Source of the DNA: Hexactinellida sp. DTS-2022 | Lineage: Eukaryota; Porifera; Hexactinellida | Assembly: GCA_028753945.1 (NCBI GenBank) | Contig: JAPNXP010000002.1 | Location: forward strand, 13,206,001-13,270,000 | DNA: 64,000 nucleotides | Direction of reading: 5' to 3' | In this document: one piece after another, positions 41,555 to 59,561 of the stretch | How the letters are laid out: each line of letters opens with the position of its first letter | Position numbering within the stretch: the stretch's first letter is position 1 | The notes under the pieces: model-generated | The model's input: only the letters and a program-made list of their open reading frames with translations | Databases searched by the model: none | What the model was told of the DNA's origin: nothing | Program-made: the position numbers and the translations under genes

Positions 41555-42408
41555 ATCAAATATATTCCAAAAACCTTCTTATGTCTAGACTACTCTAATA
41601 TCAGTTGCACGTATATTCTAACTTTTAGCAAATTGCTGATTTTATATAGTCTAGCGCTGGAGCGAAGCTCCGCTCATCAGACACTATATATATTGCATAG
41701 CCAGACTATAATGGCTTGCACTTGCAATTTACTAAACCATGTTATTGTCTGGTTCCGACTGTGCCTATCGTAATATTACTGTGTTGCTATTCTATATTAT
41801 CAGAGATGGCTGGTCGCTACACCAAGGCTTCTAATCGTTAAAATATTGATTAATAATACCATTACATCATTTTAATTAGAATGGGCTTCTTTTATTGGCG
41901 TGGCAATTGAATCCAATTTTACAACAAGTTGTGAATTGAGAGAATTTCATTTAGTGATCGTAGTTCAAGTAATAAGTCGAACTTTCTTTATTATAAGAGC
42001 AAAATACCGTGTTTGACATATATTGAGGAGCCAGCCAAGTTTTCTCGTTCTGTAGCCAAAATCCACAGTGCATAAGAATTGAATTGATAGACTGACTTTT
42101 AATGTCTTTTAATTAATGATAGTCGAATCGATTTGTTTTATCAGCGAGTGACGTTATATGGTTCTTTACAGATTTGGTTGTTGTGTCAAATCATCAAATT
42201 ATGTTACAGTATTGGCCAACTTTATTTCTGAGATAATCTGAATAATAATTACCTGCTATTACTTAGCAACAAATCCAGACCATAATCCAAACGGATATAC
42301 ATATCCTGAGGATGAATTAATAAATCGATCTGATATGAGATGGGACCACGACTTAGTATGAAGACTAATCGTCCAATAAGCCCCCACCTCATAGGGATGA
42401 TATGTCAG

Positions 42409-42458
42409 TGGTTTCGTCCCATTGCAGGGACTCATCAGGAGGGTAACCCTCGACCACT
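42409..42458 (-). ncRNA. Hammerhead ribozyme motif A
   Basis: On the minus strand all core parts occur in order: GTGGT, cleavage-site C, a stem I hairpin GAGGG-TTA-CCCTC, the invariant CTGATGA, a stem II hairpin GTCCC-TGCAAT-GGGAC, GAA and ACCAC. GTGGT pairs with ACCAC as stem III, so the open end is at stem III (type III permutation). Stem II's fifth pair is C-G here and T-A in copies B and C, a compensatory change. The motif lies in a moderately repetitive GC-richer segment. Self-cleavage is predicted from the motif and not shown. Confidence 0.82.
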
Positions 42459-42970
42459 CTTATTGCGCCAACCTAGTGTAGGTTACCAGTCGTACTGCCG
42501 GCATGTGAATACTAAGACCCGTAGTCATAGACCTAGTGCACCTAGTGCCTTTCCCAAGGACACTACTCCCAAAGGTCATAGTGATGCTCATTCACAACAG
42601 ATCCCGTCCTCAAACCTTATACACAGTCAGATCTGCTTATTGTGAACAATTTTTAATCTGCTTAATTAATATGAAAAACTCTATGGTCCCAAATTAACAA
42701 CCTACTTAAAGTATGTATTAAGTTGAGTTCGCTTATTATGAAGTCTCTCTATTATGAACACAATTTTTGGCCCCTTGGATGTTCATAATAAACGAACTTG
42801 ACTGTATTTTAGAATTTGGAATAGATTTCAGATTAGTTCCTAATCTAATCCAATAACATAAAATATGAATTTTAAACCCGTAAAACCATAATAACTAAAT
42901 AACCTAAATCCTTGGACGATAAATCTTGTTCGATACCTCAAAATTTCTTCATATTTATGTTACCATCATA

Positions 42971-43030
42971 TAAGTTAAGCAATACGTCATATTCTTATAA
43001 TAAGTTAAGCATGACGTCATATTCTTATAA
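42971..43030. repeat. Two 30-bp tandem units
   Basis: TAAGTTAAGCAATACGTCAT plus ATTCTTATAA, repeated with two differences (AAT to ATG). The unit contains a TACGTCA/TGACGTCA sequence like a CRE element, probably by chance. Confidence 0.75.
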
Positions 43031-43841
43031 TAATTGCTCCTTGGTTGTCAGATTTCGCGATAGGATTCTATTCTCCAATTGTAAATGCCCATATATGGAT
43101 TCTTCTTGAAATTTATAATTATATGTCATATAATTTTAATAATTTGTATTAATTAATTAAGAAAAAGTTACTAATTATTAGCGCATAGAGCCACTGGTCA
43201 TTAATGGGGGGGCAGGGGGGGGCAGAGTATCCCAGGCCCCCCCAGTTTATTAAACTCGATGTTTCATAGATTGATTGTTTTTTACAATGAATGCGACTAT
43301 TCATTCTACAGATTCATTCGCAAGGTGTTACAAAAACAAATTGTTAATTTATTGTTAATTGTGTAATGAATATTAATAATGAGATAATATTAATAATGAG
43401 GTATAGAGATAAACTTTTTTTGGTCCCCCCAGATTTTGAAAGGATACCAAAAATATCGACGTCTATGCCACTGGTTATATAGTTCATTTTTTAAGTGACC
43501 TCTCATTTCTCATTTTTCACTTCCCCAAGAAATGATAATCAGTTCTCATCGCAAGTCATTGGTTCACATTCTTTTAGAACTTATAACTAAATTCTCGTAA
43601 CCTAAATTGGCTAATAAGAGATTTTGTGAGGTGTGTTCAGTTTTCTAGTCACATGCTTGATGGTAATTGCAGTGAGATCACGACTGTAACTATAGATTAC
43701 ATTAACAATAAACTATTTGCATATAATAAATACTGATTTGGAATTCGAATTATTTGGAATATATAGCTATAAATAACATATTAGCCAACTTGATGATTAT
43801 GATATATTATTGCATGATGTAGGTATTTTGTTCTATCTACA

Positions 43842-45224
43842 TCAAGTGTTATTATTGAGGAAATTATTCAGAATATCATATGCCCTTCTTGGTTGAGAGG
43901 ATGGTACTTGGTGCCCCGCCTCGCGGACAGTTTTGAATGTCATCTTGTCGTACTGTAGTGTGAACCCACCCACTTGGAGTGTTGATGCATGCCAAGGACT
44001 CCAATCAGTTGTTAGCTTTATGCTTCCATCTCTTTCCAAGTCTTTTATCCATAGTAAAGTGCCCAGCCATGGAACAGCTGCATCAACATCACCTGAGTAG
44101 ACTAGGAATTTTAAATAATAGTGGTAAGGCAGTAGTTGCTCCCATACCTTTTTCATTGGAGTCATTATGTCCTGTATTGAATACTTTACTAGTTTCGAAC
44201 GTAGGGTCCATTCTTTTAAGTCTGCGTGTATTGCTTTTTGCACATCAGGTCTGTTTAGATATGCATACAAGTCTTTAGGGCCACAAGGATTGTCTTCTAA
44301 CTTATATCTCTTCATTGGACTCTCTCTTATAAATGGTAGCCAGTAGTTCAGGTGTGTTTCTTTAAAATGATTTTCGCGCATGCACATATCATCATATATG
44401 TCATATGGATTAATTATTTCTAGAATTTTGTCGACTTTCTTCAACGTTTCTAAACAGAATTTATTCATAGGAAATTTATCCGGGTATTTCATGAATGGCC
44501 CACTTTGGTTAAAATCACAGTTGTTATTGATTGCAGAAAACTCTTCAATTGTCATTAGTCCATGAGTGTACCAGAATAAAGTTGTTCCGTTATTGTCAAA
44601 CTTTGGATAAGTCCAAGGATTTCCAACTAAGAACCCCTTGAAATTAATAATGAGATTTACTCTGGTAATGGCTAGTGCCAGATTTGGTACGTAATGGCCC
44701 CCATAGGATTCTCCAGCTAGGTAGAACGGCCTACTCATGTATTTCGGGTATTTGGCTAGGAATCCTGTGAGAAACTGTATAAGGTCAGTCGCAGTACGTT
44801 CGTCACCGACAGTATAATCGCTCTCAACTTTCGAACTAGAAAACCCAACTCCTGCAGGGGACTCTACATACAGCATATTAGCCAATAGATTCCATGAATA
44901 AGGGTTATTGTATAAAGTATTTCCATCGGGACTCGGTGTAAATGGACCGTTTTCGAGAAGCAGAGCATATAAGGATGACCAACCAGGTCCTCCGGTCTGC
45001 CACAGCATTAATGGCTTCGAATCTGCATCCTCTTGTGCCTCAACAAACCAGTAGAACAATTTCCTTTCATTATTAGCATCAACAGTTATATAGCCGGCGT
45101 ATTGGTCAAATGCATCACCAGATGGTTGCCCTGGTAGGTTTGTAATTTTATCAGCATTATCTTGTGCAAATGTACTTGCAAAAAGGAGGAAACAAAAAAT
45201 CAACACTCGACTATTGCTTTGCAT
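43842..45224 (-). CDS. Serine carboxypeptidase, S10 family, copy 1 (atypical)
   Basis: A single-exon 460-aa secreted protein with a signal peptide (VLIFCFLLFASTFAQ). It belongs to the cathepsin A / carboxypeptidase Y family, which removes C-terminal residues at acid pH. The catalytic triad is in place: Ser in AGESYGGHY, Asp in YSGDVDAAVPW, His in EAGHQVPSSQP. Substrate-binding ENGPF and AGVGFSS are present. The oxyanion segment reads GGPGWSS, where copy 2 and nearly all relatives have GGPGCSS (Trp at about residue 82), and the partner cysteine region WNMCS of copy 2 is WTLRS, so both members of a conserved disulfide are gone together. Large blocks are identical in nucleotides to copy 2 and separated by diverged blocks. 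It is 866 bp downstream of copy 2 in the same direction. Confidence 0.93.
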   Translation of the reverse strand: MQSNSRVLIFCFLLFASTFAQDNADKITNLPGQPSGDAFDQYAGYITVDANNERKLFYWFVEAQEDADSKPLMLWQTGGPGWSSLYALLLENGPFTPSPDGNTLYNNPYSWNLLANMLYVESPAGVGFSSSKVESDYTVGDERTATDLIQFLTGFLAKYPKYMSRPFYLAGESYGGHYVPNLALAITRVNLIINFKGFLVGNPWTYPKFDNNGTTLFWYTHGLMTIEEFSAINNNCDFNQSGPFMKYPDKFPMNKFCLETLKKVDKILEIINPYDIYDDMCMRENHFKETHLNYWLPFIRESPMKRYKLEDNPCGPKDLYAYLNRPDVQKAIHADLKEWTLRSKLVKYSIQDIMTPMKKVWEQLLPYHYYLKFLVYSGDVDAAVPWLGTLLWIKDLERDGSIKLTTDWSPWHASTLQVGGFTLQYDKMTFKTVREAGHQVPSSQPRRAYDILNNFLNNNT

Positions 45225-46090
45225 CTGAAAATCTTTTTATTTTGACGAACTTTGTTTGAATGAATCCTCTATCTAGTTCTGCAAAAAATATTTCATTTAC
45301 AGTACGAATATCCTACCAGAAATATTCCTATATAAAATTGATTACAAATGTACAGTGGCGTTTGCTTATTACTAACAAAGTTGTATTTTATTTTTGCTAA
45401 TAGACGTACTTGGTTTTAGAGGAAGAGAATTAACATTAAATGCTCGCTTGGGGACTGAAATTAATATGATAATAGAATAGTTGTTATTATACGAACACCA
45501 CCGTATTATAAGTCCAAAATATTCCGAAATGGTGTAAATTGAATTTCGTTTTTATGAATATGGGATTAAAATGTTATTTTTATATATTAATTATTCCTTT
45601 ATAATGTTTAAAAATGTGTATTCACTATAATTATTACTTGTAACATCAGGAGTCAATTTCATTTTTGTTTGCGGGATTCGTAAATAGTGTATTACTTTAC
45701 CCAATACGCAGTACTCAAGACATATGACAATACGTAGAGGCATGTTGCAAATTCTCAACAAATTTCATTGTTCAACTCTAAATACAGATGACCCAAAGAC
45801 CATCTATAATATCACAAGATTGAACTGCTAAACTTATGATACATTTAGTTATTTGCATGAATAGAACCTAAAACGCATGACCATCAACAAGCAACAATTA
45901 TCCGAAATATTTAAGTTTTAAGGTAATTAAGTAGATCAATAGGACAATAATTAAAAGATTACGTAGGTTAATAAGAAGACTTAAATTAAACTAAACGCTT
46001 TAAATAATAAATATAAACATGTAGAGTTCTGAGACAATATAGGCTAGTTATTTAGTCATCAGGTCCTAATTTAGTCGTGTTATGCTATAC
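45225..46090. other. Spacer between the two carboxypeptidase genes
   Basis: 866 bp of AT-rich DNA containing the promoter of copy 1 and the 3' end of copy 2; no repeat or RNA gene recognised. Confidence 0.5.
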
Positions 46091-47458
46091 TTACTTTGGA
46101 TTGAGGAAATTATTCAGAATATCATATGCCCTTCTTGGTTGAGAGGATGGTACTTGGTGCCCCGCCTCGCGGACAGTTTTGAATGTCATCTTGTCGTACT
46201 GTAGTGTGAACCCACCCACTTGGAGTGTTGATGCATGCCAAGGACTCCAATCAGTTGTTAGCTTTATGCTTCCATCTCTTTCCAAGTCTTTTATCCATAG
46301 TAAAGTGCCCAGCCATGGAACAGCTGCATCAACATCACCTGAGTAGACTAGGCGATTTAAATCATAAGGCAGTAGTTGCTCCCATACCTTTTTCATTGGA
46401 GTTATTAAGTCCTGTATTGAATAATTTAATGACTTTGAACACATATTCCACTGTTTTAAATCTGCGTGTATTGCCTTTTGCACGTCATCCCTGTTTAGAT
46501 AAGCCGTAATGTCTGTACTGCCACAAGGGTTATCGCCCTTAATTTCAAATAAATCTTCGCGCCGATTGTTGAATGAAAGTAAATGATGCAATTGCCTTCC
46601 TTCAATATACTTCGAGCGCATGCACATGTCATCATAAATGTCATATGGACTAATAAATTCCAATACTTTGTCAACTTTTTTCAACGTATCTATGCAAATT
46701 TTATTGCTAGGAAAAATGTCCGGGTATTGTAGGAATGGACCACTTTTGCTAAAATCACAGTTTTTACTGATTGCAGAAAACTCTTCAATTGTCATTAGTC
46801 CATGAGTGTACCAGAATAAAGTTGTTCCGTTATTGTCAAACTTTGGATAAGTCCAAGGATTTCCAACTAAGAACCCCTTGAAATTAATAATGAGATTTAC
46901 TCTGGTAATGGCTAGTGCCAGATTTGGTACGTAATGGCCCCCATAGGATTCTCCAGCTAGGTAGAACGGCCTACTCATGTATTTCGGGTATTTGGCTAGG
47001 AATCCTGTGAGAAACTGTATAAGGTCAGTCGCAGTACGTTCGTCACCGACAGTATAATCGCTCTCAACTTTCGAACTAGAAAACCCAACTCCTGCAGGGG
47101 ACTCTACATACAGCATATTAGCCAATAGATTCCATGGATGCGGATTATTGTATAGCGTCTCTCCATAGGGACTTGGAGTGAATGGACCGTTTTCGAGCAG
47201 AACCGCTAACAGTGAAGAGCAACCCGGGCCACCTGTTTGCCACAACACAAGCGGTTTTGAGTCTGCGTCTACTTGTGCCTCTACAAACCAGTAGAACAGT
47301 TTCCGCCCATTCTTAGTATCTACAGTTATATAGCCTGCGTATTGGTCGTATTTAACAGCGGGTTGTCCAGGGAGATCTGTTATTCTATCCGAGTTATTTT
47401 GTGCAGCAATTGCCACCAATAACAAACACGAAAACTGTAGTATAAATGTTTTGTACAT
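46091..47458 (-). CDS. Serine carboxypeptidase, S10 family, copy 2 (canonical)
   Basis: A single-exon 455-aa protein. The start at 47458 gives a proper signal peptide (MYKTFILQFSCLLLVAIAAQ); the frame continues upstream without an ATG. Triad Ser (AGESYGGHY), Asp (YSGDVDAAVPW) and His (EAGHQVPSSQP) are present, as are GGPGCSS and its likely partner cysteine in WNMCSKS. As a cathepsin A-like enzyme it probably works in lysosomes or digestive vacuoles. Its start faces the start of chitobiase-like gene 1 across 425 bp, so the two may share a bidirectional promoter. N-glycosylation sites (NNS, NGT, NYS) fit a secretory route. Confidence 0.94.
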   Translation of the reverse strand: MYKTFILQFSCLLLVAIAAQNNSDRITDLPGQPAVKYDQYAGYITVDTKNGRKLFYWFVEAQVDADSKPLVLWQTGGPGCSSLLAVLLENGPFTPSPYGETLYNNPHPWNLLANMLYVESPAGVGFSSSKVESDYTVGDERTATDLIQFLTGFLAKYPKYMSRPFYLAGESYGGHYVPNLALAITRVNLIINFKGFLVGNPWTYPKFDNNGTTLFWYTHGLMTIEEFSAISKNCDFSKSGPFLQYPDIFPSNKICIDTLKKVDKVLEFISPYDIYDDMCMRSKYIEGRQLHHLLSFNNRREDLFEIKGDNPCGSTDITAYLNRDDVQKAIHADLKQWNMCSKSLNYSIQDLITPMKKVWEQLLPYDLNRLVYSGDVDAAVPWLGTLLWIKDLERDGSIKLTTDWSPWHASTLQVGGFTLQYDKMTFKTVREAGHQVPSSQPRRAYDILNNFLNPK

Positions 47459-47883
47459 TCCTAATTGTATTTGTGGTTGATTTGATAAAAAATATTCGCG
47501 TTTCGTAAATCTAAATTGTGGATAATTATGGTTTATTAGTATATATTTCAAAGACAATTGAACTCTTGTAAATACACTTATTATATTATGTATGCGGGAA
47601 GTTGTAACGTTGAGAAATTGGAAACCTTACGAGCCTAATGTTGCCTAATGGAGATACACATTTCACCCAAAATATGATTGTTGGTACTATAAGCTAATTT
47701 AGGAGATTTATTTAACGTATATAATAGCACAATCTTCCAATTATTGAACCTAACTATATCAAACCCTAAACTATGTATTTAATCTACATCAAACTTTCAA
47801 TTGTCTGCCTACTTTGTAATCATGCAACTATAAATTCTACAGATTTTAAACGCTTCATTAATTAAAGTTTTTTGGATCTAACA
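47459..47883. promoter_or_regulatory. Shared promoter region of carboxypeptidase 2 and chitobiase 1
   Basis: 425 bp between two divergent start codons of secreted hydrolases. AT-rich; no clear TATA or known operator was picked out. Shared control is inferred from the layout. Confidence 0.4.
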
Positions 47884-49410
47884 ATGTTAAATTGCCTTTT
47901 CATACTGTTGCTGATTCCAATAAGTATCGCTTCTAACTCGAATGGGATAACTAACTTGAATTTCGTCAATAATCGCCGTTTGGTTCCACTCAGCTGTCCA
48001 TGCGAAGATAAATCGTTGTGCGACCCCATCCCACCCGCGAAAGGAAACACCAGATTAGCGTACTCAAGGGTTGCGGCTAATTGGAAATACTTTGATTTCT
48101 CTAAAATCACTGAACTGATAATATTTTTTGACATTTCAGAAATGGATCCTCAAGTTATCTGTACGGCCCATAAGAATAACGTACAACTCCACCTTATGGG
48201 ACTATTTAATCACGAAACCTTTCTAAACTTGACACAGAAAGAAATGTGGATAAAGGAGTCTCTGGATCTGGTTAAAGAAAACTTTCTGGATGGAATAAAC
48301 ATTGATTATGAGGAGGGCCGTAGTGGTATACAGGAGCCTTATTTAGTAAAGTTTGTGGAAGAGATATCTTCCACACTGAAAAGTATGAATCCAAACTACC
48401 AGCTGACTTATTGTCTTCCTTCGTGGCCGCTAGGAAACTACGATTTCACTACAATTCCTTACATTGTTGACTATCTAATGTTGATGGACTATGATCAGAA
48501 CTGGAACAATCCTCAACACTGCTATGCATCAGCCAACGAACAACCGCAAGTTACCCTTAACGGTAAGAAATTACTTACTTATCGGTCAACATATTTCTAA
48601 TGTAATGGGCAAAGCCATTTTTAGCATCAAAAAAATTCGATCTCACTAAGACGGGGTTATATATAAGATACTTAAAAGATGTTGGCCAATAAACGACGAA
48701 AGACATTTATTCGAGCCTCATAAAAAACGAATGGTTGCACAGTTTGGTTTTTGGCAAATGAAAATTTTTCATTACGAAAGTCGTAAGCCGTAAGGCATCA
48801 AACGTAAGGGGATGTCATATGGCCATATGCTTAATTTTGAGGCATATACGTAAAGTATATTAATCCTGTTTTTTGCTTAATATTAGTACAAAGATTCGTA
48901 TACTAAATAAATGTAAATAATTTTGCAGTCATTAATATCCTTTATAACCTTTCTATCTTAGGTCTCGTTGCATTCCTCGAACTCGGTATTCCACCTTCAA
49001 AGATAGTCATAGGTTTGCCATGGTACGGCTATCTCTACCCATGCGTTAATGTTACAGTTGGAAGATGTTATTTTGACAACTGCACTAGATATGAAGGGAG
49101 ACAGGTTGATCTTACAGGCATTTACAATCAGTATATTATTAATGATACGTATTCAATTGAACACGGATGGGACAACGCAACTATTTCTCCCTACATCACA
49201 ATAACAAGCAATGACAATGCCTTGGGATCAACCGAGCAACAATACTGGTACGACAATGGTTATAGCTTAACTCAAAAAGCTAGCATATATAAATACTACG
49301 ATATTAGAGGAATCGCAGCGTTCCATGTCGACTGTGTAAATTACACTATACCCGGAATGCAAGAAATGGTCAAAGACCTCTGGGCTTCTTTTAGTGTATT
49401 CGAAGATTAG
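47884..49410 (+). CDS. Di-N-acetylchitobiase-like GH18 protein, copy 1
   Basis: Two exons, 47884-48562 and 48962-49410, joined as G|GT, give 375 aa. A signal peptide (FILLLIPISIAS) is followed by CPCEDKSLC, which matches the N-terminal cysteine motif of human chitobiase (CTBS). The GH18 catalytic motif is DGINIDYEE (human DGINIDIEQ), with the acid glutamate and assisting aspartate intact. PWYGYLYPCVNV, YWYDN and the C-terminal RGIAAFHVDCVNY also match CTBS. The enzyme cleaves the reducing-end GlcNAc from the chitobiose core in lysosomal glycoprotein breakdown; chitin digestion is an alternative role. Most of the reading is nearly identical to copy 2. The 399-bp intron holds a TCGGCCAACA MITE. 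The ATG at 47884 was preferred because the frame upstream has no ATG. Confidence 0.93.
48582..48689. mobile_element. TCGGCCAACA MITE copy in chitobiase 1 intron
   Basis: Begins TCGGTCAACATATTTCTAA, ends TTAAAAGATGTTGGCCAA; starts 20 bp after the donor site. Confidence 0.65.
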
Positions 49411-49910
49411 TTTACAAGTAGCATGTCTCCTTACCTTATCATAATTGTTAGTTAACATTAGATAACCACACCCCTAATTTCGACCTAAAACTAGGATTAT
49501 TATTGTCATACATTTGATAATTTTTTCTTCTTTACTTTAGAATGTGTTGTAGTATTTGTGACTTTTTGTTTCGTTGCACTGATTAATGTGATTTGATAAT
49601 AAACTATGTTATCATCAGCGTTAAGCGCATCCTCGCTTGTAAATTAAACAATTCCATTAAAAAAAAAAACTTACTTAACATTCAGCCAATACATTTCAAT
49701 ATAAAAATATGGCTGTTAAAAAGCGTAATAATTACATTAGGAAATATGTTGGCCAAAATGCGTGCGTATGTAAACTCCATTTCCGAATTATTTGCCGGAT
49801 ATGGATTTTCAACCTCTCAGTTTTGGACTCACAATATTTAGGATGACTTAGCCGGTGTTGAAATCATTCGTAAATAGTAATTTAAGAAATATTGATTGTC
49901 CGTATGTATA

Positions 49911-51540
49911 CCAATTGGCGGGAGCGCTGCATTTGTTAGAATTTGTGATGTTGTCAATTGTTAGAATTTTCCATGTTGTCAATTGCCCGAATATTATGTG
50001 ACTCATGTTGTCATTTGTCAGAATTTGTCATGTTGACAATTCTGTGATGTTGCTATAGTACCAGCTTCTAAGTTTTCTTTTGCTGGTTAAATGGAATCAC
50101 TGACTGTGGAATTAGTAACAAATCAAATGGTATCTTATGACCAATCGAGTGCATTATGTACATCCATATTAATAAATAGCACATACCTACGTACATTATA
50201 CTCCGACAATATTTCATAATTTACATATCTAATATGGAGTACCGCTTACAACAGAATCGCGGGACAATTTATGAGACTTCTGATATATGGACATAATTTC
50301 GTCCAAAAGAATGGTCGCTTATAATTATTTGAGATGTGTTTTGTTCCGTAACGGTTGTAAATCTACTGGTAAACTGAACCATCATTCGAATTTCAAAAGT
50401 GTCATTTCCTGGCATTATCATGGACACAGTGAATATAATAATGACATATACTTGGTAAAAGCGAAATGTAGGGAAGCTGCGAAAACATCGCGATGTAATT
50501 TACGGAGTTTTCAAAGATGTATCGAGAATAGATCCAGCAGGCAGTAAAATTTCATTTCACAGTTGCGAGTCTACAATGTATCGATGTAGAAGGAAATTTC
50601 AACCCAAAATTCCCCAAACGCTTTCCGAATTTGAGATGCAATTGACAGGAACAATATTCGGAATGAATTTCAAAGCTTCTGTTTATAGAGGCGAAAACAT
50701 GTGCTTGGAAAAGGGCAGTAAATTTGGAAAACCACTTATGACCATATATGGCAACACTGCATGCCCATTTATGGTCAGCTTCTATATGCAAGAGACAGAT
50801 TTTCTAAAGAGATTCTACACTTCTAGTGCACCGATTGTTAAATTTAGGACTTTTGAGAGTGGGTCCCTAATGTTAAACTAAGGTTAGTGGATTAACCACT
50901 GAATAGACTGATATACGTATATGATATGTTTACTAATACGTAGTACCAAAGGTGCTAGGTGAACGCTGTTAAGTGTGGTATGTAGGATTTTTTCGCTACC
51001 AAATAAATCATTTAATAGTAATCTAACCGTGTGAAAGATATCAAATTGTGGAATAAGCATTTATTTACTGTAGACAGTAAAATAGTATCTGCATTGTCAC
51101 CGAAATATATTATTCATGCGTAGGCCAGTCATTAGAAAAGGCAGAAAAGTCCAGAAAAGGGCGGTTTTCCCACCTGTCCCGGTCTTTTCTAGAAAAGGGC
51201 GGATTTTTCCGAACAATTAAATTTTCTTACCTATCTTTTTTATACTTACAATGATCTACAATTTAAAACCATATTCCTTATACAACACTTCTACATAAAC
51301 AGCGCCAATTATATGTTAAAGATGGCAACATCATAAATTCTAACAGAGAACAACTTGATAAATTCCAACAAATGACAACTTTATAAATTCTAACAAATGA
51401 CAACTCAACAAATTCTAACAAATGACAACTTCATAAATTCTAACAAATGACAACTTCATAAATTCTAACAAATAGCTACTCAACAAATTCTGACAAGTGA
51501 CAACATCGAAATTCTAACAGTTGCAGGCGCCTCCAATTGG
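49911..51540. mobile_element. Mutator-like (MULE-type) element with FLYWCH gene remnant
   Basis: The ends CCAATTGGCGGGAGCGCTGCA and, on the other strand, CCAATTGGAGGCGCCTGCA are inverted repeats. Inside each end lie arrays of the unit TTGTTAGAATTTGTGATGTTGTCAATT in opposite orientation, at least four units on the left and seven on the right, typical of long MULE subterminal repeats. Between them is a decayed coding remnant (50287-50880). Length about 1.6 kb. A 9-bp target duplication could not be defined, so the outer edges may be 10-20 bp off. The superfamily is inferred from the structure and the protein remnant. Confidence 0.7.
50287..50880 (+). pseudogene. FLYWCH-type zinc-finger fragment of the MULE-like element
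   Basis: Two adjacent frames read as one ancestral protein N-terminus. The first (50287-50547) carries a FLYWCH/WRKY-like pattern: YLRCVLFRNGCKSTGKL, then HYHGHSEYN with paired histidines. The second (50576-50880), in another frame, carries RRKFQPKIPQTLSEFEM, the phrase that follows FLYWCH in many MULE transposases and related host genes. The DDE catalytic part is absent. One frameshift separates the frames and the 3' part is deleted, so this is a dead transposon gene and not a host zinc-finger protein. Confidence 0.6.
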
Positions 51541-51779
51541 CAACCGTCAATAATTATTTTAATCATAAAATATATGGACATTCGAGGATCAACACGAATC
51601 CAAAATATAAAATTGACCATCAAAAATGAACTATGAGCCCCGTGGAGCCCCTAAACAATATTTGACCGCCAGCCAATGTCATACTACAATTAATTGATGA
51701 ATAACTACACGCATGATGTGGTGAGCATGAGACACCGTAAATGTATCTCACACCCACCGGGATACGACATGTGGTGGAA

Positions 51780-51829
51780 GTGGTTTCGTCCTATCACAAG
51801 GACTCATCAGGAGGGTAACCCTCGACCAC
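51780..51829 (-). ncRNA. Hammerhead ribozyme motif B
   Basis: Minus strand: GTGGT, C, hairpin GAGGG-TTA-CCCTC, CTGATGA, hairpin GTCCT-TGTGAT-AGGAC, GAA, ACCAC. Every invariant core position is kept and the 50 nt match copy C exactly. The downstream sequence on the plus strand (GTTACCAGT, then ACTAAG) resembles copy A, so the motif is part of a larger dispersed repeat. Confidence 0.85.
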
Positions 51830-52144
51830 ACTACAACTGGTCTACTCCAGTTCTAGTTACCAGTGAGCCATGCCGTTCTCCTACCACAGGTACTAAGCAC
51901 AACCCACCTACACTAGGATCCCTCTAGTGCACTCCTGTCAGCCCGTCATCACAATAGGCGTAGAAGTAGCCCGGGCCGCCCGGGCCCGCCCGGGAAGGTT
52001 CTGGAAGCACACGGGCGGCACGGGGGATTTTGGATCGAATTATCATTGAAATATACTATAATCTTTCCCGATATGTCTTCTCCAAATACTTATATAGTGC
52101 ACTTGATTTAATTATTCATTCAATTGCGTATCCATATTTGTTAG

Positions 52145-52225
52145 CATTGGCGCCGATTTCTTTTGATTTCCTCTAAAATTTGGGCGGGTCCGGACCCGCC
52201 CAAATCGGCACTATCGGCGCCTATG
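52145..52225. mobile_element. 81-bp hAT MITE
   Basis: CATTGGCGCCGAT on the left and ATCGGCGCCTATG on the right are inverted ends with one mismatch; flanks TTTGTTAG and TTTGTTAT agree at 7 of 8 positions. A central palindrome GGGCGGGTCCGGACCCGCCC is also present. Same end type as the 8566-9240 element. Confidence 0.85.
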
Positions 52226-52999
52226 TTTGTTATTATTGTTACTTGCTATATACCTATACGTTGAGGCTTGACGCTTGTTATGTCCAAGCTATTCTCCGAG
52301 AATGTCTAAAAGGCATATTGACGATGGCTCAAAACAACCAAGTTTCGCTAACTCGCTCGGGCAGATTATAATAATTTTGGGGAAACGTTTACGCCTATGA
52401 CTACACGTAATACTTTGGCATAAAAAGTGTAACTATTGATTCAAACATTTTTTGTCCCGTGGTGTAGAACACGAATTATTTTTGTCCGCAAGAAAAAAGG
52501 TAGAAACATGTATTAGATATAATAGAGATTATGATTTAATGTTAGTCGTATGAAACCAAATACTCTAGGCATATACGTACTTACCTTGGCCCAAGAATTA
52601 GTAAATTCAGTAAATTATTGAAATAAATTATATACTAAGTAGATAGGTACAACATGAATTGCTATTAAAAATATTTAAGGTTTTCTAATGATACATTTTG
52701 AACTAATGAAACAGCGAAATTTCAAAGCAAGAGTCTTTTGCGATAGTTTTGACTATTGAGCCAAGTGCATAATCAATATTATACATACATATCTATTTAC
52801 AAATAAGATATCCGAATTCCCATGTTCGAAGAGAAAACAAAACTATATTTCTCTGATCAATCAGCTAATATATGCTTTACATACATTAACCTAGTTTGGG
52901 CCAAAGCCAACATTATGGGCCTAAGTCGCCCCAGTTTACGGTACGTATATTAAAATTAAATTAAAATACTATAAATCTTGAGGTTCTCATATTAGTACG

Positions 53000-55900
53000 A
53001 TGCTTGACTTCATCATAATACTGTTACTAATTCCAATAAGTGTCGCTTCTAACTCGAATGGGATTACTAACTTGAATTTCGTCAATAATCGCCGTTTGGT
53101 TCCACTCAGCTGTCCATGCGAAGATAAATCGTTGTGCGACCCCATCCCACCCGCGAAAGGAAACACCAGATTAGCGTACTCAAGGGTTGCGGCTAATTGG
53201 AAATACTTTGATTTCTCTAAAATCACTGAACTGATAATATTTTTTGACATTTCAGAAATGGATCCTCAAGTTATCTGTACGGCCCATAAGAATAACGTAC
53301 AACTCCACCTTATGGGACTATTTAATCACGAAACCTTTCTAAACTCTACACAGAAAGAAATGTGGATAAAAGAGTCTCTCGATCTGGTTAAAGAAAACTT
53401 TCTGGATGGAATTAACATTGATTATGAGGAGGGCCGTAGTTCTGAATGGGAGCCTTATTTAGTAAAGTTTGTTGTAGAAATATCTTCCACACTGAAAAGT
53501 ATGAATCCAAACTACCAGCTGACTTATTGTCTTCCGGTATCGCCGCTAGCAAACTACGATCTCGCTACGATTCCCAAAGTTGTAGATTATCTAATGTTAA
53601 TGGACTATGATCAGAGTTGGAACAATCCTCAACACTGCTATGCATCAGCTAACCAACAACCGCAAGTATCCATTAACGGTAAATGTAGATTACTATATTA
53701 TATCTTATATATTAAATCACAATAATTTTTTGTTGTGAGGAATTGATTGAGGAACTGGTAAGAGCTACAGACTTGAAATTTGGCAGGGGGTGGGGAATAG
53801 TGTACAGTAGAACCTCGTTAATACGAACACCAACGGACGGTAAAAAATTGTTTGCTTTATCCGGAGTTCGTATTAACCGGAGTAATACTCATTTAATGTC
53901 TATTGTAGGTACCTCATTTAGTGGAACTGTTTTTTCTTCTTATCCGGAAATTCGTATTAACGAGGTTCTACTGTATCTAGGAACAAGTTCTAACATTTAA
54001 GAAAAACATTCACATCTTCCCTCCCTAAAGGTGCCGAAAAACTTTTGCCTATTAAATTCGAGGGTTTTCCAGTATGGATTAGCTGCCACCATCAAATAGT
54101 ATAAAATGATTTTAGTGTCTCTATCAATTGTTAAGTGTGCATTATAGAATGGCTAACTGAGACTGTGATTTAATTGGTCGAGAGAAAGTTCATTCATCCA
54201 ATCAGTTATTGTGTTCCCTCCCTGTCTACAGTCACAGTGTCTAGCCATAAATTTCTAACATTCTGTTACAAGTACAACTGTAGAGAAAATCTACTGGTGA
54301 GTCTGCACTTGTATACTCTACTCTACAGGAGTGCCTACTGGGTATGTAGGTAGCGGCAGTACGGTGTAGTGTAGGAAGGCACTGTGGCACTGAAGTACGG
54401 TGGTGCCTAGACATGGTGGTAGTATTATATTGTAAGATAGCAGGCAGCCTCAGGTCCCTACGACCGCGAGCCGCCCCACTACCTTACAGGGCATAACATA
54501 TTGTATGAGTGGTTTCGTCCTATCACAAGGACTCATCAGGAGGGTAACCCTCGACCACCATGTCTAGGCACCACCGTACTTCAGTGCCACAGTGCCTTCC
54601 TACACTACACTGTACTGCCGCTACCTACATACCCCAGTAGGCACTCCTGTAGAGTATACAAGTACAGACTCACCAGTAGACTCTCTCTACAGTGTGTACT
54701 TGTAACATCTCCAATGTGTCTATTTGATATCCAATTAATATCAATTGATACAATAACTTCCCACCTGGCTCCAAATAGTTGTACAGTTCCTTAATGTTCG
54801 TTAATTTACAATATTTGGTGTCGGTATTATACACACGCCAAGCTTATCTATAAAATTGTCTGTTTAAGTTAGCATCAATATTCTGGCGCCTAACTGGGTT
54901 AGTATTTTCTAAATAATATGCTTTGTCCTATAACAACCTAAAGTTGGGGTCCTCGGATATAAATATCTACTTAGGGGCCACACCTGAAAGAAGTTGGGAT
55001 TCCCTGCTCTGCTATATATATGCAGTACAGTAGAGTCTGCTAAAACGGTCATTTGTAAATAGGCTAGCGGGCTGAGAAAATATTTCCTATATGATTTCCC
55101 ATAATATAACCAACCTGTGTATGAAGCCTTCGAACGTTACGTAACGCTTCCAAGGGGGAGAAGGATTACGAATATGACAGACCGTACTTTTTTTTACAAA
55201 ATGGCCAAAACGTGACTTAAGGAAAGAGGATATAAAATTTTCGTAATTTTTCGTTACATACCACAGTATGTAAATACAACTGCATAATATTTGAAAAAGG
55301 TATTTGCTTTAAATACAAGCGAGGGCGCAGGCCCGAGTGCAAGTTGTAAGAACGCGCGTAGCGCGGACGAGCAGCTTGTTATATATTAAATTACAATAGT
55401 TTTTTTGTTTTGTTTGTTTGTTCAAAATTGATTGAGGAACTTGGTAAGAGCTACAGACTTGAAATTTAGCAGAGATGTAAAATACTGTATCTAGAAACAA
55501 GTTCTAATAGCTAAGAAAAATATTCACATTTTGCCTCCCAAAAGGTACAAACTTTAACCAAATAAATTCAAGGGTGGATCAGCAGCTAGCATTCAATTAG
55601 AATAAAAATATTTTAGTGTCTATCAAGTGTGCATTATAGAATGTCTAACTGAGACGTAATTTAATTGGTCGATAGTAAATTCATTAAGCCAATCAATTAT
55701 TCGTGTTCCCTCTGTCTAGCTATACATTTATAACATTCCATCGTGTCTATTTGATATCCAATTATTATTAATCAATATATATATTAACTGTTTCTCACCT
55801 GGGTCCAAGGAGGTGTACAGTTCCTTAATGTTCGTTAATTTCCAATATTTGCATTCTACATATGTTATATGTACACACGGACAAACTTATCTATAAAATT

Positions 55901-56992
55901 GTCTGTTTAAATTAGAATCCATATTCCGGCGCGTACTGGGTTAGAATTTTATAAATAATTTGTCTGTCCTTATAACGACATAAAGCTAGAGTCCTCGGAT
56001 ATAAATATACTGATTGGGAGGCCACACCTGAAAGAGGTTGGGATACCTTGCTCTGCTACATATATCCTGTTAGTAGAATCTGCTAAATATAACTCTACAC
56101 AACGGTCATTTGTATATAGGCTAGCGGGCTGTTAAAATAATTCCTATATGATTTACCGTAATATAATGAAATCAACCTATGTACGAGGCCTTCGAACGTT
56201 ACGTAACGCTTCAAAAGGGGAGAAAGAATACGAATGTGACAAATAATATTATATACGTATTAGATATATCCCGGAACCGACATGTTTTGTTTAAGCATCA
56301 AAATTAGCATACAAAAGTAAATAAAACAAGGAACAATGTACGAGTATTCCTTTATTATTGACCAATACCTTTTCTAATTTAATTTATGACCTAGAAAAGT
56401 CATTGTCTATCATCAAAGAGTCACTTTTACGAAGCTGGTTTTTTATATTGTAAAGGTTTTGGCCGATAGACAAGTAATCCCTTTAAACAAATGATACGTA
56501 TCATCAATTATTAATATCCTTTATAAACTTCCTTTTTTAGGAATTGTTGCATACCTCGAACTCGGTATTCCACCTTCAAAGATAGTCATAGGTTTGCCAT
56601 GGTACGGCTATCTCTACCCATCATGCGTTAATATTACAGTTGGAAGATGTTATTTTGACAACTGCACTATACATGAAGGGAGACAGGTTGATCTTACAGG
56701 CATTTACAATCAGTATATTACTAATGGAACGTATGCAATTGAACACGGATGGGACTACGCAACTATTTCTCCCTACATCACAATAACAAGCAATGATAAT
56801 GCCTTGGGATCAACCGAGCAACAATACTGGTACGACAATGGTTATAGCTTAACTCGAAAAGCTAGCATATATAAATACTACGATATTAGAGGAATCGCAG
56901 CATTCCATGTCGACTGTGTAAATTACACTATACCCGGAATGCAAGAAATGGTCAAAAACCTCTGGGCTTCTTTTAGTGTATTCGAAGATTAG
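53000..56992 (+). CDS. Di-N-acetylchitobiase-like GH18 protein, copy 2
   Basis: Two exons, 53000-53678 and 56541-56992, joined as G|GA, give 376 aa. A signal peptide (FIIILLLIPISVAS), CPCEDKSLC, the catalytic DGINIDYEE and the end RGIAAFHVDCVNY are all present, so it looks functional. Exon 1 from about 53045 to 53345 is almost identical in bases to copy 1, and exon 2 is over 95 percent alike by eye, with one extra serine (YPSCVNI). The 2.9-kb intron is about seven times longer than in copy 1, owing to a local duplication, a pogo MITE, a fold-back element with a hammerhead motif, and other repeats. The role is as for copy 1: a lysosomal or digestive exo-chitobiase. Confidence 0.92.
53805..53973. 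mobile_element. Pogo/Tigger-like MITE with natural empty site
   Basis: TA flanks CAGTAGAACCTCGTTAATAC on the left and GTATTAACGAGGTTCTACTG on the right, a perfect match over 20 bp. The duplicate segment at about 55488 has the uninterrupted target (AATACTGTATCTAG), confirming the TA target and insertion after the duplication. Confidence 0.92.
54264..54707. mobile_element. Fold-back element with hammerhead motif in its loop
   Basis: Arms 54264-54420 and 54554-54707 are inverted copies of about 155 bp (TGTTACAAGTACA at the left edge, TGTACTTGTAACA-like at the right; both end at the CCTAGACATGGTGGT boundary). The 133-bp spacer carries hammerhead motif C, and the right arm begins inside the ribozyme's stem III sequence. 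Copy B of the local duplication lacks the whole unit. No coding capacity; the transposon class is unknown. Confidence 0.8.
54509..54558 (-). ncRNA. Hammerhead ribozyme motif C
   Basis: Identical over 50 nt to motif B, in the loop of the fold-back element: GTGGT-C, stem I hairpin, CTGATGA, stem II hairpin, GAA, ACCAC on the minus strand. Predicted cleavage is after the C that follows GTGGT. Confidence 0.85.
55428..56225. repeat. Copy B of the intronic segmental duplication
   Basis: Begins AAAATTGATTGAGGAACTTGG and ends GTTACGTAACGCTTCAAAAGGGG; lacks the two insertions of copy A and so preserves their empty target sites. Between the copies is a short GC-rich patch (55318-55380: GCGAGGGCGCAGG, GCGCGTAGCGCGGACGAG). 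Confidence 0.8.
56369..56467. mobile_element. TCGGCCAACA MITE copy in chitobiase 2 intron
   Basis: TGACCAATACCTTTTCTAA on the left and TAAAGGTTTTGGCCGATA on the right; ends 74 bp before exon 2. Confidence 0.6.
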
Positions 56993-57772
56993 TTTACTAG
57001 TAGCCGTGTATCATAGAAAGACTTTTAATTAGTTTTAGTCACATTAGCTTGTAACATCCCTAATTTAGAATTTTGAATTACTTTTTTAAATTTGGCTTTT
57101 GCTAATTTTAAGAGGTAATAAAAAGTTTAATTAATCACTGCTTGATTGTATTATATATGAATTTTCTTACTCTATTTGCATATGGGATCCCAGGATTATC
57201 CAGGGATTTGAGCATTTATATTGGGTTAGAGTTATTTAAATAACTAAATATTGTTATTCTTCAAGATAACTCGAGAAGTTAATATAAATTATTGTACTAG
57301 TATTTATAATCATGTGAAAATCCATAAATCCACAAAAATATGCCAAGGATGCCACCAGATATCATGATAAAATGGTTTATATGAGAAGCTAACAAAGTTC
57401 GAGGGGCGGGAGATTAAAATGTAGATTTTCATAAATGCTATAAATATGGATAGGTAGTCTTTTATTCAAATTCATCTCAAATTCAAAAATTTTTATATAT
57501 TAACATGCCTATTAGTAAATATAGTTTTATTAGTTTAGTTTTCCATAATCTTTACTGATGTAACTGACATTATTTTCTCGTGTCTGGTTACCAGAGTGTA
57601 CAATAGGTATAATGATATCATTACAGTCGAATATATATGTAGAAATTCATTTTGTAGTAACATAATTATATTAGAAACTCGTGGAACAACTTAATAGAGC
57701 AATTAACTTAGATACCTTTCAAAATTGAAGAAGTATTATAAATTCTGAAATTTACTAGTCTGGTATGCTATA
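56993..57772. other. Spacer between chitobiase 2 and 3
   Basis: 780 bp of AT-rich sequence; nothing recognised beyond the expected 3' end and promoter. Confidence 0.5.
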
Positions 57773-59561
57773 ATGCATTACTACATCTACATTTATATAC
57801 TCTTGTTATTTCCGATAAGTATCGTTTCTATATTGAATGGATTGACAAATTTCGTTAATAATCATCGTTTGGTTCCACTCAGTTGTCCATGCGAGGATCC
57901 CTCGTTATGCCAACCCATTCCGCCTGCTAAAGGAAGAACTAGATTGGCGTACTCAACGAAAGCATCCAATTGGAAATACTATGATTTCACTAAAATCACT
58001 GAAATTGCATTGTTCTTCGACATTTCAGAAATGGATCCTCAAATGATCTGTACGGCCCATAAGAATAACGTACAACTCCATCTTGCAGGTTTCTTTACAA
58101 ATCAAACTTTCTTAAACTCTACCAAAAAGGACAAATGGATAGAAGACTCACTAAAGCTGTTGAAAGACAACTTTTTAGATGGAATTAACATTGATTATGA
58201 AGAGGCGCGTAGTGCTAAATGGGAGCCTTATTTAGTTGCATTAGTTGAAGAAATATCATTCAAAATGAAGACTCTTAGTCCAAATTATCAGCTGACGTAT
58301 TGTCTCCCATTACGCCCCGAATTAAACCATGATTTGGTATCGATACCTAAAGCTGTGGACTATTTCATGTTAATGGATTATGGGGAGACTTGGAGAATTG
58401 ATCCTGCTCATTGTTACGCAACAGCTAGTCAACAGCCAGTACAGACGCTTGAAGGTATTAATAATTATAATACCTACTCGTAATACTTTAATTAACAGGG
58501 GCGCGGCGTCGATTAATTTAAGTATTGAGAGTTGATCCCGATTAATTATTATACGTCTAATTGGCCCTGAAATAATGGGGAGTGGCGAGATTATACTTTC
58601 GCCCCCAATTAAAATATTTATGTGGGAGATATAATTTTTGTGAAAATATCTATTTACTAATTCGTAGTACTCAACACTTCTCATTTTACAAGTTTTATAC
58701 ACGTAATATTTTTGATAACTGGACATATCAGGATTGGTTGGGCCCATTTGTAGTTGGTTGCATATTAAGTTTTAATTAATTAATTTAACCCTAAGCTGGA
58801 AGGCGAAAGTGAAAGTGAAAGTGAATTGAATTTCAATTGAAAATGAAAGTGAGTTTTTTCTATTTATACTTTTACCCCACAGCCAGCTTCGGGTTTTAAT
58901 TAATTGATAGAAGGGAATATGGACTAGCAGTCATGGTTGGTAGGTTTTCAGCACTGGCAAGGTCATTTTAACATCACAAATTCACCTTTTTGATACCTGA
59001 TTTTTTAATTAAAAAAGTCTTTGCCGATTTTTATGTAAATATGTAAGCCCTTATTTTAGTAATTTAATTAAAAAATATTTAAGTGCAAATTTCCTATTGT
59101 ATTTCGCAGGTCTAACAGGATTCCTCCAACTTGGTATTCAACCATCAAAGATTGTAATAGGCATGCCATGGTTTGGATTTCTCTACCCATGCGTTAATGT
59201 TTCAAACGATGAAAAGTGTTATCTACACCTCTGTACTGAAATGGTAGCAAAAACCACTTACTTACCTCAAATTTACAAAGAGTATGAGCTTAGTAACGAC
59301 TATATAGTTGGAGAGAGTTGGGATTACGCAACACTCACTCCCTTTATGACTATAATACCGAACTATTACAACCCAAAGACATTGATTCAGCAATACTGGT
59401 ACGACAACGGGTATAGCCTAGCACAAAAAGCTGACTTATACAAACACTACGAGATCAGAGGAGTTGCAGCTTTCCATGTTGATTGTTTGGATTATACAAT
59501 CCCTGCATTGAAATATATGAATTATGGCTTCTGGGATTTCTTTACTGTATTCGCAAATTAG
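57773..59561 (+). CDS. Di-N-acetylchitobiase-like GH18 protein, copy 3 (diverged)
   Basis: Two exons, 57773-58454 and 59110-59561, joined as G|GT, give 377 aa. A signal peptide (IYILLLFPISIVS), CPCEDPSLC, the catalytic DGINIDYEE, PWFGFLYPCVNV, YWYDN and RGVAAFHVDCLDY are present. It differs from copies 1 and 2 along its whole length, with the active-site half best kept, so it is the older branch of the family or has escaped gene conversion. Several N-x-S/T sites. The intron position and phase equal those of copies 1 and 2, so the three arose by tandem duplication of an intron-containing gene. The 655-bp intron holds a small TIR element (58773-58905). Confidence 0.92.
58773..58905. mobile_element. 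TIR element in chitobiase 3 intron
   Basis: TTAATTAATTTAACCCTAAGCTGG and, at the other end, CCAGCTTCGGGTTTTAATTAA are inverted with few mismatches; GTGAAAGTGAAAGTGAA repeats lie inside. Target duplication not resolved. Confidence 0.6.

Follow-up and report, generated by a model that had tools for sequence, protein, structure and literature searches.

Three hammerhead motifs in the window (the 64,000-nt stretch of the genome of the glass sponge Hexactinellida sp. DTS-2022 analysed as a whole) very probably belong to LTR retrozymes, that is, small, non-autonomous and non-coding LTR retrotransposons whose long terminal repeats (LTRs) carry a type III hammerhead. This family of tiny retrotransposons is large and apparently was active recently.

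Hammerhead motifs in the window and the genome

All three motifs lie on the minus strand, at 42409–42458 (copy A), 51780–51829 (copy B) and 54509–54558 (copy C), where a preliminary description of the sequence had placed them. Each matches the full 54-position Rfam model Hammerhead_3 (RF00008) above its gathering score of 48.5 (E 2.9e-11 to 2.2e-10): copy A with 61.4 bits (42459–42406), copy B with 58.3 bits (51831–51778) and copy C with 58.7 bits (54560–54507). Every copy preserves the complete core, the GTC cleavage triplet and three intact stems, with cleavage predicted just 3′ of the C at 42452 in copy A, and 3′ of the C at 51824 and 54553 in copies B and C, respectively; judged from their sequence, the window hammerheads would self-cleave. 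The scores above cut-off for all three copies bear out an open end at stem III, and thus type III. The proposed departure from most animal hammerheads holds too, those of published metazoan retrozymes being type I. The preliminary description further reported a compensatory change in the last pair of stem II. This pair is indeed C-G in copy A and T-A in copies B and C, but because the latter two have the same T-A form, the window provides a single contrast only.

Across the 112.4-Mb genome, the core pattern CTGATGAGNCCN{5,12}GGNCGAAAC returned 250 matches and none when read backwards, and a narrower hammerhead pattern with up to three mismatches returned 393 versus 0 for its reversed control. 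These controls rule out a chance motif. Contamination is unlikely, because each of the 18 contigs was hit (among the matches listed) and copies reside within host DNA between duplicated target sites. The 250 and 393 places were fetched in part, and 98 hammerhead copies were parsed. The genome scan with RF00008 suggested earlier placed 64 of the 68 scored genome matches above the cut-off. Loci L095, L096 and L097, like the direct part of L024, each have two matches above it. Family G (L077), whose first hammerhead has a stem III mismatch, fell below it. RF00163 gave no matches in the sponge genome, with the controls for that search likewise silent.

That base pairing rather than sequence was kept, as had been claimed from the window, is corroborated by the parsed copies. 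These comprise 52 distinct hammerhead sequences, in which 771 of 780 stem cells are paired, as against 705 ± 4 with partners shuffled, with only stem pairs 4 and 5 constituting free evidence because the parse demanded at least three pairs per stem; these two are paired in 49 to 52 of the 52 sequences. Positions at which both partners of the pair differ between copies include 2, 3 and 5 of stem II and 4 and 5 of stem III. The 52 sequences include a solitary hammerhead-like fold (L035, at C1:10042837) with no relative in the set and no Rfam match at the gathering cut-off.

LTR-like units, primer sites and a candidate autonomous partner

The suspicion that the hosts are dispersed and retrozyme-like is upheld by LTR-like units, often flanked by target duplications, to which some families add a tRNA primer site as well as an autonomous partner sharing their ends. 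The hammerheads sit in discrete units of 222–325 bp, which we read as LTRs. TG...CA ends were found in 70 of 71 units, partly by construction, as the ends had been refined by seeking TGT and ACA, TCA or ATA close to the aligned ends. Exact target duplications of 4 or 5 bp flank 34 of the 56 units with both ends testable (32 of 54 when counting units with distinct flanks), compared to 36 of 3080 (1.2%) in a cross-pair null. Thirty-one of these duplications measure 4 bp (families A–G) and three 5 bp (family H). Exact duplications are absent from 22 of the 56 testable units, including window copies B and C and, within family C, five of six testable units. Three single units of family B have identical flanks, reflecting a duplicated segment.

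Two-LTR direct units carried a target duplication in seven of seven testable cases, or six of six once the unit at C1:10383286, in fact one LTR interrupted by an insert, is set aside. A five-LTR array (C1:7627723–7629906) is flanked as a whole by one duplication, CTAT. Two-LTR inverted units comprised 13 tail-to-tail and no head-to-head arrangements, in a sample partly picked for visible pairs; one of the 13 combines LTRs of families G and B (C1:10109104). Most loci were fetched via a hammerhead match, while L047, L067, L074–L078 and L095–L097 were among those picked for coordinate-visible pairs, so the shares of direct and inverted units do not equal genome frequencies. Middle regions, as derived from LTR coordinates, are short (73–161 bp in families G, D and H) and non-coding. 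Tandem hammerhead copies spaced 238–486 bp apart occur in the genome, and the RNA length between the two cuts is 238–486 nt in the seven units measured.

Hammerhead A is carried by a 269-bp solo LTR of family A (TGTTGTG...CATATCA; minus strand, 42331–42599), delimited by its LTR ends and flanks and bordered by the target-site duplication GATC at 42600–42603 (5′ side, on the minus strand) and 42327–42330 (3′ side). Hammerhead B lies in a 237-bp LTR of family B (TGTGATGACGG...CTCACCACA; minus strand, 51717–51953) without target duplication, and 17 of its 25 listed dispersed relatives reach 97% identity or more. With many near-identical copies, the elements are therefore probably young. Hammerhead C belongs to a 277-bp LTR of family C (TGTTACAAG...CTATCTTACA; minus strand, 54431–54707), and a second, partial LTR of this family lies on the plus strand at 54264–54417 (positions 1–154 of 277, 93% identical, inner end approximate). 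Together they form a tail-to-tail pair (54264–54707) with no exact target duplication, an inverted arrangement that had been missed in the first reading. A paralogous stretch without the insertion (minus strand, 55528–55900) aligns across the joined flanks of element C at 73% identity with gaps. One protein encoded in the window shares 60% identity along its entire length with a protein of Oopsacas minuta, in keeping with a glass sponge host.

A tRNA primer site adjoins the 5′ LTR in families G and H. The 15-mer of the tRNA-Gly 3′ end occurs at eight sites in 112 Mb, namely one tRNA gene and seven LTR-end primer sites; a hammerhead core lies near six of the latter. The tRNA-Ser 15-mer has seven sites, which correspond to one tRNA gene, four hammerhead elements and two gag-bearing elements. 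An intact hammerhead core is missing in one of the 11 elements picked by primer site, and no recognised tRNA primer site was found in families A–E, including the window copies. Purine tracts before the 3′ LTR, read by eye, are AAGGGAAGGTGA (family D), AAGGGGGGTGA (E), AGGGAAGAGTGA (G) and GGTGAGAGGAG (H). Primer site, purine tract and second LTR come together in L095–L097, L077 and L080. The 14-mer TTGGTGCATTGGCC occurs at 12 places, eight of which are primer sites already known. The other four comprise L091, a decayed element whose primer site is accompanied by an altered hammerhead, and L092, L093 and L094, which have neither LTR end nor hammerhead.

As for a candidate autonomous partner, a gag-like frame follows a family H-type primer site and a similar LTR end, and a reverse transcriptase (RT) domain (PF00078, 1.9e-30) lies 0.8 kb beyond this frame. 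The gag-like frame has no Pfam match, and its L101 copy contains two stops. An element at C2 has 161-bp LTRs that are 99.4% alike, a 5-bp duplication (GATTT), the TGTAGTATC start as in family H and the first 13 bases of the 18-base primer site. Only in family H do retrozymes have their LTR ends and primer site in common with gag-/RT-bearing elements, and we take the partner of this family to be of the Ty3/gypsy type, going by domains rather than a tree; for the 4-bp families, no autonomous partner was found.

Proposed mechanism and alternative readings

The sequences suggest that the hammerhead elements may give rise to circular RNA. Upon transcription of an element, both hammerheads would cut, and a host ligase would close the 238–486 nt RNA between the cuts into a circle. 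The reverse transcriptase of an autonomous element would copy this circle into one-LTR, two-LTR or multimeric cDNA, and the integrase of the same autonomous element would insert the product. Solo LTRs, the multimeric array and tail-to-tail LTR pairs count as other integration products. In families A–E, a hairpin directly after the LTR, its 3′ arm complementary to the LTR's own 3′ end, could act as primer, and copying from the hairpin arm back into the LTR would generate the tail-to-tail pairs. We tentatively propose, while considering it rather doubtful, that these families dropped the tRNA primer: the post-LTR hairpin would prime the circular RNA, run-on would lead to multimers and fold-back to tail-to-tail pairs, and the integrase would insert them all, resulting in foldback-like insertions. 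The five-LTR array within one 4-bp duplication, the 13 tail-to-tail versus zero head-to-head pairs and an LTR-end change in C13 that is matched in the hairpin arm fit such hairpin priming.

The TGT...ACA ends had first been read as those of a DNA transposon, a reading abandoned once primer sites appeared. Under it, a DNA transposon family (MITE or foldback, e.g. Ginger-like) would have captured the hammerhead. Ginger-like DNA transposons have TGT...ACA ends and 4-bp duplications, as seen here, and the inverted pairs resemble foldback elements. However, LTR-middle-LTR copies carry a tRNA primer site and a purine tract, relatives with the same ends are reverse-transcribing, and one array is multimeric. 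Rather than terminal inverted repeats devoid of retro-signals, we found primer sites in families G and H, which refute a DNA transposon for these two, and purine tracts in D, E, G and H. Families A–C, taken by themselves, are more amenable to this explanation, as they are without the tRNA primer site that would count against it; overall, we regard it as unlikely.

Still less probable are animal non-LTR retrozymes, i.e. hammerhead tandem repeats mobilised by Penelope-like or LINE-type elements. The animal host, the tandem copies at 238–486 bp spacing and monomer sizes overlapping the published 150–450 bp (PMC7229834) would suit them, but the hammerheads here are type III instead of type I, and the LTRs, primer site, purine tract and 4–5 bp duplications are features reported absent there in the sections of PMC7761336 covered. 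The tRNA primer sites contradict this origin for families G and H. The empty RF00163 search carries no weight here, its controls having been silent too. Least credible of all, and in our judgement very improbable, is an origin from a viroid-like or satellite RNA integrated into the genome, as opposed to a host retroelement family. Such an RNA would fit the type III hammerheads and the compact folds predicted for seven of seven units (circular MFE z −2.9 to −7.1), yet the copies have LTR ends in common rather than being permuted circles, contain host tRNA primer sites and share ends with gag- and RT-bearing elements; moreover, a 26-base hammerhead pattern had 0 exact matches in viral_contigs and 0 in genome_contigs.

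LTR retrozymes and related elements

Self-priming LTR retrotransposons of the Tf1/sushi kind use a hairpin, not a tRNA, as primer. Sponge families A–E resemble them in possessing a hairpin as possible primer and differ in their candidate primer arm, which is located within the middle region and is complementary to the 3′ end of the LTR itself.

Published work assigns LTR retrozymes and type III hammerheads to plants, and non-LTR retrozymes and type I hammerheads to animals (PMC4918200, PMC7229834, PMC7761336). In the open-licence literature, covered mostly by titles and abstract starts, we found no LTR retrozyme in an animal and nothing relevant on hammerheads in sponges (Porifera, hexactinellid, Amphimedon); in the text covered of PMC4918200 and PMC7761336, the sole mention of 'sponge' is a microRNA-sponge reference. 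With its plant-type architecture, and with tRNA primers and a gag-/RT-bearing partner of its own, the glass sponge breaks this plant/animal division. Such elements are either old and overlooked, or moved between lineages, or arose more than once, and they offer an animal system for testing how genome-encoded ribozyme circles originate and are primed.

Terminal-repeat retrotransposons in miniature (TRIMs) of bivalves are tiny non-coding LTR elements with solo and tandem forms, known from few animal cases (PMC6934838). The sponge elements are likewise tiny, non-coding and LTR-bearing, with solo and tandem forms, but their LTRs carry hammerheads, a word found nowhere in the main text of PMC6934838. 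Metazoan non-LTR retrozymes have type I hammerheads and, in the parts of the reports covered, are described as being without LTRs, primer site or purine tract (PMC7229834, PMC7761336). With these the sponge elements share an animal genome and hammerhead-bounded units of a few hundred bases, and they deviate by type III hammerheads, LTRs, a primer site (families G and H) and a purine tract (D, E, G and H).

Plant LTR retrozymes have type III hammerheads in their LTRs, a non-coding middle, a tRNA-Met primer site, a purine tract, 4-bp duplications, many solo LTRs, a size of about 700, and ends and primer site common to Ty3/gypsy elements (Cervera et al. 2016, PMC4918200). The sponge elements match them in the type III hammerhead in both LTRs (L095–L097 and the direct part of L024), the non-coding middle, primer site, purine tract, 4-bp duplications and many solo LTRs, as well as—in family H only—in LTR ends and primer site common to Ty3/gypsy elements. 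In contrast to the plant elements, they inhabit an animal host, use tRNA-Gly or tRNA-Ser in place of tRNA-Met, are smaller (LTRs of 222–325 bp and 238–486 nt between cuts in seven units, versus about 700), and display tail-to-tail LTR pairs, hairpins following the LTR and, in family H, duplications of 5 bp.

Type III hammerheads in the window and the genome

The preliminary description reported three minus-strand hammerhead motifs, at window positions 42409-42458 (copy A), 51780-51829 (copy B) and 54509-54558 (copy C); the sequence confirmed all three, and the stem II difference among them (C-G versus T-A) is real. Their assignment to type III likewise held, with RF00008 covering each copy at full model length (58.3-61.4 bits; cut-off 48.5). 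A genome scan with the same model, proposed in that description, placed 64 of 68 scored matches over the cut-off, which is a lower bound, the best 68 of 12319 candidates having been scored and the window's own copies being absent from the list. Across the whole genome (112.4 Mb, 18 contigs), an exact-core pattern returned 250 matches and its reversed control 0, while a narrower pattern tolerating up to 3 mismatches returned 393 versus 0 in the control.

With a parse that demanded three pairs per stem, applied to loci mostly picked by a pattern fixing part of stem II, 771 of 780 stem cells were paired in 98 hammerhead copies (52 distinct), as compared to 705 ± 4 (maximum 716) in 500 shuffles of the stem partners. 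Stems II and III contained pairs altered on both sides, and stem I contained a few; the base 5' of the cut was C in 87 copies, A in 9 and T in 2. Given both selection effects, loci picked by their primer site provide the cleaner evidence of hammerhead conservation. Predicted circular folds of seven hammerhead-to-hammerhead units (238-486 nt) were stabler than their shuffles (z -2.9 to -7.1; 60 dinucleotide shuffles each).

A hammerhead-like fold at locus L035 (C1:10042837, minus strand) has the stem III GCTGT/ACAGC, a different stem I and flanks unrelated to the other copies, and Rfam is silent on it at the gathering cut-off. Ten exact TGCAAT-form hammerheads, nine of them minus-strand, cluster within 1 Mb (C1 12.911-13.907 Mb), perhaps a duplicated region.

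Host LTRs, target duplications and primer sites

That a dispersed repeat hosts the motifs was borne out by the abrupt common ends of loci aligned on the hammerhead. Nine single-copy reference units (222-325 bp, G+C 0.49-0.59), representing families A-E, G, G2, H and H2, were cut and compared by BLAST to 97 fetched loci and the window, yielding 121 LTR-like matches, 71 of which reach both ends within 12 bases. All but one of the latter (70/71) have a TGT start and an ACA, TCA or ATA end no more than 5 bases from where the alignment ends, and unit ends are short inverted repeats of each other, as with TGTGATGA and TCACCACA of family B. Copy A resides in a solo LTR (42331-42599), copy B in an LTR (51717-51953) and copy C in a tail-to-tail LTR pair (54264-54707), whose joined flanks align with gaps, at 73%, over an uninterrupted paralogous stretch at ~55528-55900. 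Among the 25 family B relatives of copy B listed, 17 are at least 97% identical. Three family B LTRs (C14:1128225, C14:4210857 and C15:2963814) have the same flanking bases, so that insertion was probably followed by duplication of a larger segment.

As to neighbouring genes, pieces of a glycosyl hydrolase 18 (GH18) gene are repeated across window positions 47866-59561; the two examined matched PF00704 at 2.7e-7 (above cut-off) and 1e-6 (just below cut-off), and the empty site of element C falls among the paralogous spacers. Serine carboxypeptidase frames occupy 43842-47626, two neighbours that are very similar by eye, one of which (46091-47623) matches Peptidase_S10 at 9.6e-119. A minisatellite with a 25-bp unit (51322-51519) adjoins LTR B. 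The best named relative of the RCC1/BTB protein (16190-19447) is from the hexactinellid Oopsacas minuta (60% identity over 100% of the query), with three further records nearer (76-90% identity).

When neighbouring LTRs were grouped, 87 units resulted, 60 of them single and 27 made up of at least two LTRs; 56 entered a duplication test on the outer flanks and 31, each without an end, were left out. An exact 4- or 5-bp target duplication was found in 34 of the 56 (32 of 54 with identical flank pairs counted once), against a chance level of 1.2% (36/3080) for flanks paired across different units. It measured 4 bp in families A-G (31 units) and 5 bp in family H (3 units). By arrangement, duplications were seen in 21 of 39 testable single-LTR units, 7 of 7 testable two-LTR direct units (one, C1:10383286, really a single LTR split by insertion), 3 of 7 testable tail-to-tail pairs and 3 of 3 testable three- and five-LTR units (one, C1:11906887, including an insertion-split LTR). 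GATC flanks copy A on both sides; the outer flanks of copies B and C hold no exact duplication.

The 3' end of tRNA-Gly(GCC), TTCCCGGCCAATGCA, occurs eight times in the genome, once in a tRNA gene (L079) and at seven primer sites reading TGGTGCATTGGCCGGGAA immediately 3' of an LTR end; a same-strand hammerhead core lies within 400 nt of six, and the seventh has a degraded core only. For tRNA-Ser(GCT), the 3'-terminal 15-mer ATCCCACCTTCGTCG has seven occurrences: in a tRNA gene (L100), in the core-bearing retrozymes L095, L096, L097 and L102, and in the gag-bearing loci L098 and L101. By length alone, any 15-mer would be expected ~0.2 times. Both searches were independent of the hammerhead, and an intact core was present at 10 of 11 retrozyme primer sites (seven tRNA-Gly, four tRNA-Ser). 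Families A-C, to which the window copies belong, showed no recognised tRNA primer site. A different repeat, by eye alike at L092 (C5:2908442) and L093 (C11:6147266), contains TTGGTGCATTGGCC and has neither LTR end nor hammerhead.

Complete elements and a gag- and RT-bearing partner

In family H, L095, L096 and L097 each run from LTR through primer site and purine tract GGTGAGAGGAG to a second LTR, with about 150 bp between LTRs and 5-bp duplications (ACATG, ACATG and GTTAC, respectively). In family G, L077 carries the tract AGGGAAGAGTGA, the duplication CTAT and a tRNA-Gly primer site containing a single mismatch over 18 positions; its LTRs are 73 bp apart, and its first hammerhead has a stem III mismatch. 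L032/L033 (family E) carries the duplication CTAC and tract AAGGGGGGTGA, its first LTR lacking the 3' part. In L080 (family H), which fell outside the duplication test, the first LTR lacks its 5' part; this element adjoins frames that encode RNase H and integrase domains. At C1:4510992, two family B LTRs abut directly within one duplication.

The primer site of L098 and L101 follows an LTR end resembling that of family H, the sequence CGTTATTACA T TGGCGACGAAGGTGGGAT being common to L095 and L101. A gag-like frame begins with an ATG a few bases past the primer site; no Pfam family matches that of L098, and the L101 copy contains two stops. In L098, an RT domain (PF00078, 1.9e-30) with the motif YLDD follows on the same strand about 0.8 kb past the gag-like frame, and the apparent LTR start of this locus is TGTAGTATC, as in family H. 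Of 19 stretches matching the gag-like frame genome-wide, one is part of a 1201-residue open frame on C2, in an element with two 161-bp LTRs (99.4% identical, TGTAGTATC...TATAACA), the 5-bp duplication GATTT, the tract GTGGAAAGGAA and a primer site comprising the first 13 of 18 bases. Rfam gave no hammerhead match in L098, L104 or L105. By motif and domain order, we would call this partner group Ty3/gypsy-type, because of YLDD, a motif typical of such elements, and of RNase H preceding integrase beside L080, which is another element. No partner of the 4-bp families (A-G) was found.

Multimeric and inverted forms, and relation to known retrozymes

The array and inverted LTR forms are not easily explained by ordinary LTR transposition. 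The array at C1:7627723-7629906 comprises five family D LTRs, all nearly identical, in the order LTR-middle-LTR, hairpin, inverted LTR-middle-LTR-middle-LTR; in one joint a short stretch of the LTR end is repeated, and a single CTAT duplication encloses the entire array. Its three-LTR half is consistent with copying around a circular template, and multimeric cDNAs from such templates were proposed for plant retrozymes in 2016 (PMC4918200).

Two-LTR inverted units were tail-to-tail in 13 cases and head-to-head in none, in a sample partly picked for visible pairs; head-to-head neighbours occur within two three-LTR groups. Several tail-to-tail joints contain a perfect or near-perfect hairpin (for example, TAATAACTACCG...CGGAGTTATTA in family D, TTATAACCC...GGGTTATAA in family B, ATATAATAACC...GGTTATTATAT in family C), and others are joined within the LTRs. 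A hairpin also stands 3' of the LTR in copies on C13 and C15 and in the direct portion of the C1 array. In the C1 and C15 copies, its arm extends as TGTTATG, complementary to the CATAACA with which the LTR ends; the C13 copy has CATGACA at the LTR end and TGTCATG in the arm. Beyond the arm, these direct copies pass to the middle region and inverted joints continue as the complement of the LTR. Hypothetical priming from the hairpin arm would leave this structure; DNA-level recombination could also have made joints of this kind.

LTR retrozymes, small non-coding LTR retrotransposons with a type III hammerhead in the LTR, are given as plant elements in the accessible portions of PMC4918200, PMC7229834 and PMC7761336, which state animal retrozymes to be without LTRs, primer site and purine tract. 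The portions of PMC6155905 and PMC3088659 available add no animal LTR retrozyme, nor did our literature search, likewise of partial texts, find one. We therefore file the glass sponge elements as LTR retrozymes new in being animal, with self-cleavage and circles predicted from sequence. The window families A-C display the hammerhead and LTR features and, in part, target duplications; taken over the families together, each testable defining feature of an LTR retrozyme is present in an animal.
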